Made by a program: the position numbers and the translations under genes. This document shows positions 3,397 to 28,224 of a stretch of DNA of 64,000 bases, in pieces. The stretch lies in contig JAFYLZ010000004.1 in assembly GCA_017556795.1 (NCBI GenBank), positions 124,001-188,000 of the forward strand, written 5' to 3'. Origin of the DNA: Candidatus Saccharimonadota bacterium (GTDB taxonomy: Bacteria; Patescibacteriota; Saccharimonadia; Saccharimonadales; Saccharimonadaceae). Under the pieces are notes generated by a model. The model was not told the DNA's origin. It saw only the letters and a program-made list of their open reading frames with translations, and searched no databases. Positions within the stretch are counted from its first letter, which is position 1; each line of letters begins with the position of its first letter.

Positions 3397-5178
3397 TTAT
3401 TGTTCTTCGATGAAGGCGCCGCTTTGGCGAGACCAGAGTCGGTAGTAGCTGCCTTTTTTCTTGAGTAATTCTTTGTGAGAGCCTTCTTCGATGATTTTGC
3501 CATCTTCCAAAACTACGATGCGATCGAGATTGGCGACGGTGGAAAGACGGTGAGCGATTACAATGGAGGTGCGGTCTTTCATGAGGTTGTTTAAAGCCTC
3601 CTGAATTAGGGCTTCGGATTCGGAGTCGAGAGCCGAAGTGGCTTCGTCTAGTACGAGGATTGGCGCGTCTTTGAGGATGGCGCGGGCGATAGCGATGCGC
3701 TGGCGTTGGCCGCCAGAAAGCTTGATGCCGCGTTCACCGACCAAGGTTTCGTAACCGTTTGGCAAATCTTTGATGAAGCCTTCGACGTTGGCGAGCCTAG
3801 ACGCGCGAATAATGGCCGAACGGCTGGCGTCTGGATTGGCGTAGGCGATGTTTTCGGCAATCGTGCGATGGAACAGAGCGGTTTCTTGTGGAACGTAGGC
3901 GATGTTTTCGCGCAAGGAATTTTGGGTGACTTCTTTGATATTTTGGCCATCGATAAAGATGCTGCCGGCGTCGACATCGGCGAAGCGAAGAAGTAGCTTG
4001 GTAAGAGTAGTTTTGCCGGAGCCAGAAATGCCAACTAGGCCAATGCGCTCGCCTGGTTTAATGGTGAGCGAGAAGTTTTTGAAGATTTTTTCTTTGGCTT
4101 CGTGGTGACGGAAAGTGATATCGTCGAATACGATTTCGCTCTTTTTGATAACTAGTTTCTTAGCATTTGGTGCATCTACGACTTCGTCTGGCATGTCGAG
4201 GATACGAATCATGTCGCGAGCATCGCCAAGGCTGCTATTGATGTTCTTAAAAATATGGGTGATGTCATAAAGATCGCCGAGCAAGGTTTGTGAATATGAC
4301 ACGATGAGTACGAGGGTTGAAACCGAAAGGCCAAACCAAATCGTGCCGGTCATTAGGAAGAATACCAAGGCGGCAGTGAGCCCCATGATGGAAACGCTAA
4401 ACAACAGGTCGCGTTTGATGGTGGCGCGCATGATTTTGTTTGAGGTGTTAAACCAGCGATTCTGGAAGTGGCGGTAGCGGCGCTGTTCGTGTTTTTCTTT
4501 GGCATAAGATTTGACGGATGTAATGTTGGAAACTGAGTCCGAAAGTTGGCCGGTCTTTTTGGCGACGTCGGCGGCTTCTTCTTCGCTGTAATCGGCGATT
4601 TTGCGGAAAGACAATGCGGAAAAAAGTGTGTAAAGCGCAACAACGCCGAGGATGATTAATGTGAATAATGGCGTGCGTTGCCAGAGAATAACAGTAACAC
4701 AGATAAGGTAAGTGAGGATTGGGATTAAGTCCCAAATCACAACATCCATGAACCTTTCAAAGGCGCTAATTAATTTGTTGGTTTGCGAAACGATTGATCC
4801 GGAAAAGCGGTCGTTGTGAAATTGCATGGATTGTTCGCAAACGGTATTGAACGCTAAGCCGTCCAGGTCGCGCATCGAGAGTAACTCCATGCGCCAGCAG
4901 CAGAAGAGCCTGAGTTTTTCGAGTACCAGACTGTTAAGAATTGCCAGTGCGAGATAAATCAAAGCTTCTGGCAACACGATGGTGAAGATTTCCTGTTCGG
5001 TGAGACCGCTAGAAACTTTATCAATAATGTCAGCAAAAACGAAGACGCTCAGCACGTTGCGGATAAAAATCACGGCTGGCGACAAAATGAAGAAGCCAAG
5101 TGATAGCCATTTGTACTTTTTTACTTCGCGCCAGTAATAATGAAGGACGCGGGATGTCATGTTATCTTTTTTCTTCAT
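3397..5178 (-). CDS. ABC exporter, fused permease and ATPase (half-transporter)
   Basis: 593 residues with an N-terminal six-helix exporter domain (to about 310) and a C-terminal ATPase. Walker A is GLVGISGSGKTTLTKLL, the signature is LSGGQRQRIAIARAI, and Walker B is ILVLDEATSALDSES with its catalytic Glu, so a homodimer with two competent sites is possible. The start is placed at MKKKDNMTSRV (5178), because a TATAAT box at 5188-5193 ends 9 nt before it; the frame runs open further upstream but lacks start signals. It is divergent from ppa. The substrate (lipid, peptide or drug) cannot be read from sequence. Confidence 0.9.
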   Translation of the reverse strand: MKKKDNMTSRVLHYYWREVKKYKWLSLGFFILSPAVIFIRNVLSVFVFADIIDKVSSGLTEQEIFTIVLPEALIYLALAILNSLVLEKLRLFCCWRMELLSMRDLDGLAFNTVCEQSMQFHNDRFSGSIVSQTNKLISAFERFMDVVIWDLIPILTYLICVTVILWQRTPLFTLIILGVVALYTLFSALSFRKIADYSEEEAADVAKKTGQLSDSVSNITSVKSYAKEKHEQRRYRHFQNRWFNTSNKIMRATIKRDLLFSVSIMGLTAALVFFLMTGTIWFGLSVSTLVLIVSYSQTLLGDLYDITHIFKNINSSLGDARDMIRILDMPDEVVDAPNAKKLVIKKSEIVFDDITFRHHEAKEKIFKNFSLTIKPGERIGLVGISGSGKTTLTKLLLRFADVDAGSIFIDGQNIKEVTQNSLRENIAYVPQETALFHRTIAENIAYANPDASRSAIIRASRLANVEGFIKDLPNGYETLVGERGIKLSGGQRQRIAIARAILKDAPILVLDEATSALDSESEALIQEALNNLMKDRTSIVIAHRLSTVANLDRIVVLEDGKIIEEGSHKELLKKKGSYYRLWSRQSGAFIEEQ

Positions 5179-26475: not shown

Positions 26476-28224
26476 TTAGTGGCGCCATTTACCACCAGTG
26501 TCCGGAGCGAGCGGGATGAATGGTTCGGCCACTGCTGGAGCTTCGACTCGCAGTACTTCTGTTACTGGCTCTTCGATTACTTCAACGCTACCGCGTCCGC
26601 CAATCGTATTGAGGTCGATTTCGACCGCATCGCCGCGCGTAGAATCGGAAAGCGGTACTAGTCTAAGCAGATTTTCGTGGCTGTGATCAATGTCGCTTAG
26701 GATAATCTCGTGCTCGGCAGTGGAGCCCAAAATCGCGTCACTTAAAATTACCGTAACTTCCCTAGCGTCGGTATCAAATGTAACATGAGTCTGTCCGCTT
26801 TCGTCTATCCAGCTATCGGTAATGGTGAGAGTTGGTTTGTTTGGCATGTCAGTGTCAATATCGACGCGTGGCAAACTGTCGTAGCGAGCGTGAATTTCAT
26901 TTGCAGCGAGCTCGAATTCTTCGGTGCTGAGAATAATTTTGCCGTCGGTTTGCTCGGTGAGCTCGACGTAGTATTCGCTATTTTCCGGCTCGGTGACGAC
27001 GTAGATGTTGACCGGGTCAATGCGGCGGCTGAGTTCGACAACGTCAATGAGGCTAATGCCGTCAATGTCTGGTAAATGGTAGGAGGCGTCGGTGAGGATG
27101 ATCAACGATTTGGTGGCACCCATTTTCCAGTCCAATTCATCCATAGCGTGATAAGCGGCGGACAGTAGTGACTCTGGCTCGTCACCGCCTTCGCTAGCCA
27201 GAATTTCATTAAGCTCGGCAACGAAAAGTTCTAGTGTACAGGTTTCGAAATCGCAATGTTGTCGTGGCTCGTAAAGTTCTTGCAAATCGCGATAGTCGTA
27301 CAAGGCGACGCGCCCGCCTTTTTCAAAAGTTTGGATGGCAAATTCGATGGCGCGTTCCTTATATTTTTTGATAAATCGGCCCATCGAGCCGGTCGAATCG
27401 ATTAAGATTGCCGTGTCGTGTGGTGAATAGTAGGCGTTTTCGATCGCAAAGGCGGTGGTGATTTTGTCAAAGATGTAGCGTGAAGCGTCTTCGTAGAGAC
27501 CGTCGCGAATGTAGCTGACGTGGTCTTCGATACTTGGGTTAAAGAAATTGCTACACATGATGTCTTTGGTGTTGCACCAAGTGCCAAGTTTACCAATGAA
27601 GGCTTCTGGCTCGTATGGGCGATAGCTGCCGAGAATTCCCTCGTAGGCAAAACAGTCCGGCACGTAGCGACGATAGTCCGAAAGGTCGCGGTTGTAGCAG
27701 GCGGCCGGGATTGGATGCTCCAAATCGTTTTTCCCTTCCGGCAAATACAGTTTTGGATCGCCAAAAGTCGCTGCGTAGATAATTTTGTCGGTGTTCAGCT
27801 CGCCAAGGGTTTTCGAAATTACCATGGCGCCTTGCGAGTAGCCGGCCAAAACGAATTTGGAACTAGAACAAGTGGTGTTGACGACGCGCTTTAATTCTTC
27901 GGCGCCGGCGTTGATGCTGTCGCCAAACGTCCCGCTTTCGCCGCCGCTAAAAAACGCGCCGACCAAAGTTCCAACATCCGTCACCGAGACGGCCGGATAA
28001 TCCAAATCCCTAAAATTGTAAGTTAATGAGAGCGCCGACATTTTCTCCGACATGGCTTCTTGGAAAGCGTGGTAGCTTTCGCCCTCGTCTTGGGTCTCGC
28101 CTGAGCCGCGGATGAAGACGAATTCGACGTCCGCGCAGCCGGTTTCGGCGGCTAAGGCTTGGACCGGCAGACCAGTCGCCAACATCCCGGCTATGATTAA
28201 AATTGATAGAATTTTTTTGATCAC
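26476..28224 (-). CDS. Secreted cutinase-like serine esterase fused to a von Willebrand factor A domain
   Basis: 582 residues. The signal peptide (1-26) ends VQALAA. Residues about 28-255 match the cutinase alpha/beta-hydrolase fold: FIRGSGETQ near 38, nucleophile Ser130 in LAGYSQGAM, Asp221 in WCNTKDIMC and His235 in IEDHVSY, with Cys217/Cys224 placed as in cutinases. Residues about 268-430 are a vWA domain with MIDAS DSTGSM (276-281). The remaining 150 residues are beta-rich, ending PLAPDTGGKWRH, which resembles a sorting motif but lacks a following helix. The start is GTG with AAGGAGAG upstream. Cutinases are mostly fungal and actinobacterial, so transfer from an actinobacterial host is plausible. 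Confidence 0.85.
   Translation of the reverse strand: MIKKILSILIIAGMLATGLPVQALAAETGCADVEFVFIRGSGETQDEGESYHAFQEAMSEKMSALSLTYNFRDLDYPAVSVTDVGTLVGAFFSGGESGTFGDSINAGAEELKRVVNTTCSSSKFVLAGYSQGAMVISKTLGELNTDKIIYAATFGDPKLYLPEGKNDLEHPIPAACYNRDLSDYRRYVPDCFAYEGILGSYRPYEPEAFIGKLGTWCNTKDIMCSNFFNPSIEDHVSYIRDGLYEDASRYIFDKITTAFAIENAYYSPHDTAILIDSTGSMGRFIKKYKERAIEFAIQTFEKGGRVALYDYRDLQELYEPRQHCDFETCTLELFVAELNEILASEGGDEPESLLSAAYHAMDELDWKMGATKSLIILTDASYHLPDIDGISLIDVVELSRRIDPVNIYVVTEPENSEYYVELTEQTDGKIILSTEEFELAANEIHARYDSLPRVDIDTDMPNKPTLTITDSWIDESGQTHVTFDTDAREVTVILSDAILGSTAEHEIILSDIDHSHENLLRLVPLSDSTRGDAVEIDLNTIGGRGSVEVIEEPVTEVLRVEAPAVAEPFIPLAPDTGGKWRH

Follow-up and report, generated by a model that had tools for sequence, protein, structure and literature searches.

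A predicted secreted esterase of the cutinase family, joined to a vWA domain and ending in a bare sortase-type tag, in Saccharibacteria

The window, by which we mean the whole 64,000-nucleotide stretch of DNA that was analysed, comes from a genome of 674,245 bases, and the attribution of this DNA to the Saccharibacteria, tiny bacteria thought to live and feed on host bacteria, is supported. The gene studied here (Table 1) encodes a protein of 582 residues in which a signal peptide, a cutinase-family esterase domain, a vWA domain, a beta domain, a disordered linker and a bare sortase-type tag follow one another. The signal peptide site was assigned by eye from the sequence, and the presence of a secretion signal agrees with an earlier sequence-only reading of the same DNA, which had described the product as secreted. 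The gene is flanked by what we take to be a TypA-like gene and a deaminase-like gene, of which the downstream neighbour, presumably a TypA-like GTPase, starts 41 bases past the esterase stop. A TypA-like gene follows the esterase in 10 of 29 loci inspected (the window's own included) and the other loci differ; neither an operon nor an adjacent sortase gene was seen in these esterase neighbourhoods.

Table 1. Parts of the esterase gene and their positions in the window.
Feature	Positions	Strand	Remarks
Whole gene	26476..28224	-	GTG start, 582-aa ORF
Signal peptide, about residues 1-25	28150..28224	-	Hydrophobic stretch then ALA before mature part; model helix 3-14
Cutinase-family domain, residues 30-254	27463..28137	-	Pfam PF01083 and fold matches
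Catalytic Ser130 codon (GYSQG)	27835..27837	-	82/82 homologues
Catalytic Asp221 codon, between C217 and C224	27562..27564	-	82/82 homologues; aligns with C-x3-D-x2-C of fungal cutinase
Catalytic His235 codon	27520..27522	-	82/82 homologues
vWA domain, residues 266-449	26878..27429	-	PF25106; fold nearest integrin beta I-like domains
MIDAS motif DSTGS, residues 276-280	27385..27399	-	D-x-[ST]-x-S in 76/82 homologues
Small beta domain, residues 466-540	26605..26829	-	Strands in AlphaFold2 model
Disordered linker, residues 544-571	26512..26595	-	pLDDT <50; length and sequence differ among species
Bare sortase-type tag LAPDTG, residues 572-577	26494..26511	-	P574, G577 invariant in 20/20
Five-residue tail GKWRH and stop	26476..26493	-	No transmembrane helix after

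Profile, GxSxG Ser-Asp-His triad and modelled fold together place the protein in the cutinase family (PF01083, CE5), with ester hydrolysis as its predicted activity. The Pfam Cutinase profile matches residues 30-254 at 3.7e-17 (63.2 bits against a cut-off of 25.9), and phmmer comparison with solved cutinases gave weak matches (best E 0.00016). S130 lies in GYSQG, D221 in C217-NTK-D-IM-C224, and the triad that these residues form with H235 is intact in all 82 homologues of an alignment from which ten rows had been removed beforehand, nine of them fragments, non-genus or actinobacterial sequences and one a copy of the window gene. C30, C119, C176, C191 and C224 are likewise kept in 82 of 82, and C217 in 81. 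An AlphaFold2 model built from the window protein and 33 homologues (mean pLDDT 82.1, pTM 0.70, residues 544-582 disordered) sets S130 between a strand (123-129) and a helix (131-142), as in a nucleophile elbow. Residues 31-257 of the model match the cutinase-like enzyme 7cc4 at Z 20.4 (rmsd 2.4 A, 184 residues aligned), the acetylxylan esterases 1bs9, 2axe and 1qoz at Z 19.8-19.9 (1bs9 at 19.9) and the mycobacterial Rv3802c (5w95) at Z 19.6, matches that stand for a shared fold and are no proof of function. Because they are tied within one Z unit, the fold carries no substrate information, and "cutinase" is here a family name, acetylxylan esterases and Rv3802c fitting the modelled fold almost equally well. 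The Culp6/Rv3802c carboxylesterase equivalog NF050160 scored 13.4 bits against a cut-off of 570. The window protein shares with fungal cutinase, acetylxylan esterase and Rv3802c the fold, the GYSQG elbow, the triad and the cysteines around the Asp, but differs from them in its fusion to a vWA and a beta domain and in two extra invariant cysteines, C176 and C191. The catalytic set and the cysteine spacing that the sequence-only reading had picked out are thus where it placed them, and the cutinase fold that it proposed is borne out by profile and model, a check for folds other than cutinase having left that assignment standing.

The vWA domain and its DSTGSM metal site, also proposed in that reading, hold up as well. 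VWA_4 (PF25106) matches residues 273-381 at 1.5e-07 (31.6 bits against a cut-off of 27), and residues 265-449 of the model superpose on integrin beta 3ze2 at Z 22.4 (rmsd 2.1 A, 183 residues aligned). The domain has the vWA fold and MIDAS in common with integrin beta I-like domains, but at only 18% identity it is not an integrin. The MIDAS pattern D-x-[ST]-x-S, present in the window protein as DSTGS (276-280), occurs in 76 of 82 homologues as against 82 of 82 for the triad, which suggests that the enzyme is under stricter constraint than the metal site.

The end of the protein, on which the sequence-only reading was silent, reads LAPDTG-GKWRH-stop, and this C-terminal tag is conserved. Once duplicates had been taken out of 102 homologues, 91 were left, of which 74 carry P-x-[T/S/A]-G no more than 12 residues from the end, that is 74 of 82 once nine untagged fragments, non-genus and actinobacterial rows are set aside; the strict form P-[N/D]-T-G occurs in 53 of the 91. 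Shuffled 60-residue C-termini carry Px[TSA]G near the end at a rate of 1.1%. No transmembrane tail follows the tag in the 74 tagged homologues; in 43 of them its G lies exactly two residues before the end, and in 40 the residue next to the G is R or K. The T position is T in 58 tags, S in 10 and A in 6. KAPNTG is the most usual motif (the window protein has APDTG), with mostly A or T rather than L in first position. The linker before it varies, yet the tag keeps a nearly fixed distance from the stop even where homologues are only about 34% identical. The 17 untagged rows comprise the nine set aside together with L044, L036, L032, L039, L046, L048, L134 and L138, of which L044 has its frame cut by a contig end, L036 is a split gene, and L048 and L134 have a variant end with PDCG. 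A similar split, be it real or a sequencing error, affects L126, where the second of the two frames (175 codons) ends FIPKAPNTGVKPN and carries the tag. Of the 718 ORFs of at least 150 residues in 50 named loci with their flanks, 35 proved to end in a bare tag. Every one of them belongs to the cutinase gene, 34 being the cutinase frame itself and the last the second half of the split L126 gene. Judged as a canonical LPXTG protein, the window protein has a motif near its C-terminus, though without L in first position, and in place of the membrane helix and basic tail only GKWRH. Judged as a short-tailed substrate of the AbpA type, it has the motif plus a few end residues, as do 74 of 82 homologues, and sortase cleavage is predicted.

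The same motif recurs on other proteins. P[N/D]TG has 14 DNA-level occurrences in the window's genome, where four proteins (L054, L055, L057 and L058) end in a full sorting signal, [VL]P[ND]TG followed by a helix and basic residues, the esterase is bare, and the other places are internal, antisense-like or in short frames, one of them bare, within a frame of 47 codons that is unlikely to be a gene. Two secreted-looking frames, L052 and L062 (G000 C1:37356 and C4:333259-333287), carry VPNTG with a mid-frame helix and then about 500 more residues, and look like two proteins fused after a sorting signal. Across the genus, K[A/T]P[N/D]TG matched 107 of 170 genomes, and a reversed control pattern did so rarely. 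We fetched 60 such places outside the esterase, chosen by hand from those listed: 35 continue into a helix and basic end, a script classed 13 as bare, and 12 are short frames or unclear. Ten of the bare places are clear (L200, L201, L241, L210, L215, L218, L219, L221, L225 and L254) and three doubtful, namely L226 (a 163-codon frame), L246 (a 14-residue tail) and L250 (which reaches the contig end). In three genomes the bare KAP[N/D]TG sits on a class-3 lipase (L200, Pfam 2.6e-07, with L201 and L241 alike), and L221 carries the bare tag where L217 and L222, apparently of the same family, have the helix. The picture that emerges is of a cutinase-vWA protein with a putative tail-less sorting signal common to several secreted families of the genus; the literature covered, in which subscription journals have a small share, yielded no report of a cutinase or a bare sorting signal in Saccharibacteria.

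Homologues from other genera and families mostly retain a hydrophobic C-terminal helix (15 of 20, score >1.6). L271, from outside the genus, ends LPSTG-helix-KRKRR, and L272 ends bare in VPSSGYQ; L263, L264, L267 and L273 have lower helix scores, the frame of L264 being cut by an in-frame TGA beyond which it reaches a helix. Two changes between the bare and helix-bearing states suffice on a tree of the cutinase domain (67 rows, quick method), which by itself cannot orient gain against loss. Since most outside homologues bear the helix and the outgroup is actinobacterial, loss of the helix with retention of the motif is the most economical account, and probably what happened in this genus.

The genus takes in Ca. 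Nanosyncoccus alces, and we infer it to be Nanosyncoccus. In a genus-wide search the gene was found in 166 of 174 genomes, and in 105 of 110 of good quality, many of its carriers coming from ruminant guts according to their record titles. It is missing from five genomes of at least 94% completeness (G013, G081, G099, G103 and G125), and is therefore not essential everywhere; G013 still has a helix-bearing KAPNTG protein (L199). Beyond the genus, a profile of 20 homologues matched 121 of 392 genomes of the order, in 19 of 156 genera, a few of these matches being to the vWA part only, and across the phylum 12 of 379 genomes gave a PF01083 match, 10 of them above cut-off. The sequence-only reading had implied a link to actinobacterial hosts and proposed a phylogeny, which speaks for such a link only weakly: the saccharibacterial cutinase domains form a large group of their own, with the cutinases of Mycobacterium, Cellulomonas, Tsukamurella and Amycolatopsis outside it, and the homologues from Arthrobacter and Rothia are nested, weakly supported (81), among the saccharibacterial sequences. 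Given this placement the tree shows no recent uptake from a host, and we consider recent uptake from actinobacterial hosts unsupported by it, the method being a quick one and the branches of L154, L178, L179, L263 and L276 long. Arthrobacter (L149) and Nocardioides (L154) have the same cutinase-vWA fusion, and Rothia aeria (L155) a cutinase plus PKD. The Nocardioides halotolerans protein resembles the window protein in its cutinase followed by a vWA with DTTGSM, but differs in an extra PKD and in a C-terminal membrane helix with RRRRR instead of the bare tag.

A separate observation concerns a second genus (g16) and named relatives, whose cutinase genes contain in-frame TGA codons (L264, L148, L145, L151, L152, L330-L332, L334 and L335). 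One aligned aromatic position is TGA in 10 of 21 sequences and W (6), Y (3) or F (2) in the rest; further TGAs in the body of the gene fall mostly at Trp columns, and no TAA or TAG lies inside the frame as drawn. Release factor 2 was found in all 15 genomes searched, and the 44 tRNA places of G306 include tRNA-Trp(cca) and one tRNA without a clear anticodon but none with a tca anticodon. Genome-wide recoding of TGA to Trp is therefore unsupported in this genus, and gene-specific readthrough of TGA as Trp in these cutinase genes is possible.

Sortases that might read such a tag are at hand: all 20 relatives searched have them, and the window's genome encodes three, one of class B (160.4 bits, cut-off 153.75) and a class C-like and a class F-like enzyme, both below their class cut-offs. 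As the class B sortase occurs in just 29 of 170 genomes of the genus, we reject it as general or dedicated reader of the tag, and the reader, if a sortase, should be one of the other two. In the window's genome the class B gene and a frame for a small secreted protein overlap (L256:2607-3572 and 3520-4140); that protein ends SPDTPE-helix-basic and is likely the dedicated substrate of the class B enzyme.

The closest precedent is AbpA of oral streptococci. Its bare LPKTS-AVK end anchors a passenger to the wall by means of an adjacent class B sortase, abpA being followed by its own srtB; deletion of AVK or a change of L, P or T, including T to S or A, abolished amylase binding; and the protein is partly released (PMC4974636). 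A profile for sortases of this type exists in NCBIfam (NF040525, "LPKTxAVK-specific"). AbpA, for which wall anchoring has been shown, and the esterase are alike in being secreted and in ending with a sortase motif and a few terminal residues (three in AbpA) without a helix. Unlike AbpA, however, the esterase has no paired adjacent class B sortase, its motif K[A/T]PNTG is that of helix-bearing substrates, and several unrelated proteins carry the motif in bare form.

We propose, with confidence that is evenly balanced, that the protein is a lipid esterase which is secreted and then fixed in place by a sortase acting on its tail-less tag. It would be exported by Sec, as the signal peptide suggests, and outside the cell its cutinase-family domain, whose fold and residues are seen, would act as a serine ester hydrolase through Ser130-Asp221-His235 while the vWA domain is predicted to bind a partner through a metal at the MIDAS. 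The disordered C-terminus would offer a minimal sortase substrate, LAPDTG and a few residues, lacking the membrane helix that usually holds such a protein, and one of the sortases of the genome would cut between Thr and Gly and join the protein to cell-wall material. Its likely job would be to release fatty acids or lysolipids from host or other nearby cells, to the benefit of an organism that lacks fatty-acid synthesis of its own: no ketoacyl synthase was found in any of the 12 genomes searched, with controls found in 14 of 14. Reading by a sortase is supported by the conserved bare tag, by the occurrence of the same sextet in full sorting signals, by the presence of sortases and by the AbpA precedent. 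Against it stand the 16 of 74 tags that have S or A for T, a change that abolished amylase binding in AbpA, as well as the lack of a sortase beside the gene and the A or T that mostly takes the place of L at the start of the motif. With no helix to retain it, a large share of the protein may just escape.

Other readings of the C-terminus deserve consideration. That the protein is a plain secreted esterase, released from the cell, whose terminal motif is either a relic or an aid to folding or stability, would sit well with the missing membrane helix, with the A or S found for T in some tags and with the partial release described for AbpA itself, but we think it somewhat unlikely, since a relic would not keep a near-fixed spacing to the stop, after a linker that itself varies, in homologues as distant as about 34% identity, and since the same bare sextet stands on unrelated secreted families. 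The tag could instead be a C-terminal signal for another exporter, such as a type IV secretion system, and not be read by a sortase; the end is short and often basic (R or K after G in 40 of 74), and type IV secretion genes have been reported as essential for epibiotic growth (PMC12102498). The Sec signal peptide, the use of the sextet to open classical sorting signals in the same genus, and the alternation of bare and helix-bearing forms inside one family make this quite improbable. A programmed frameshift or readthrough that adds the missing membrane tail, as the position of the motif in a truncated sorting signal might lead one to expect, is so improbable that we have set it aside: the next gene begins 41 bases past the stop in the window, and by eye no post-stop frame gives a helix in 29 loci (the window's included).

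The substrate invites a different alternative, in which the enzyme is mainly a polysaccharide deacetylase of the acetylxylan-esterase kind (CE5) working on plant fibre in the gut, with the vWA domain binding fibre or cell surfaces. The acetylxylan esterases 1bs9, 2axe and 1qoz, at Z 19.8-19.9, are tied with cutinase as structural matches, and the ruminant origin of many carriers, taken from record titles, fits such a diet; the genome, at 674,245 bases, is nonetheless very small, its owner is thought to feed on host bacteria, and a Pfam search found no carbohydrate-binding module in the window protein, so that we hold this reading to be unlikely. A more far-reaching extension of the sortase-attached lipid esterase that we favour is that Nanosyncoccus possesses an entire class of bare-tagged secreted enzymes and adhesins that leave the parasite and are joined, by its own or a host sortase, to the host wall. 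We regard this as a long shot; if it were true, the host surface would become a feeding site through covalently placed bare-tag enzymes and adhesins.

These results bear on how Saccharibacteria take up host lipids and on how their enzymes come to sit at the site of contact, and the esterase provides a nearly genus-wide candidate enzyme with a short, testable C-terminal signal. We know of tail-less sorting signals from one streptococcal protein family only; in an epibiotic genus they may be a general route, and surface proteins of this kind would be missed by annotation tools that require a helix after LPXTG.
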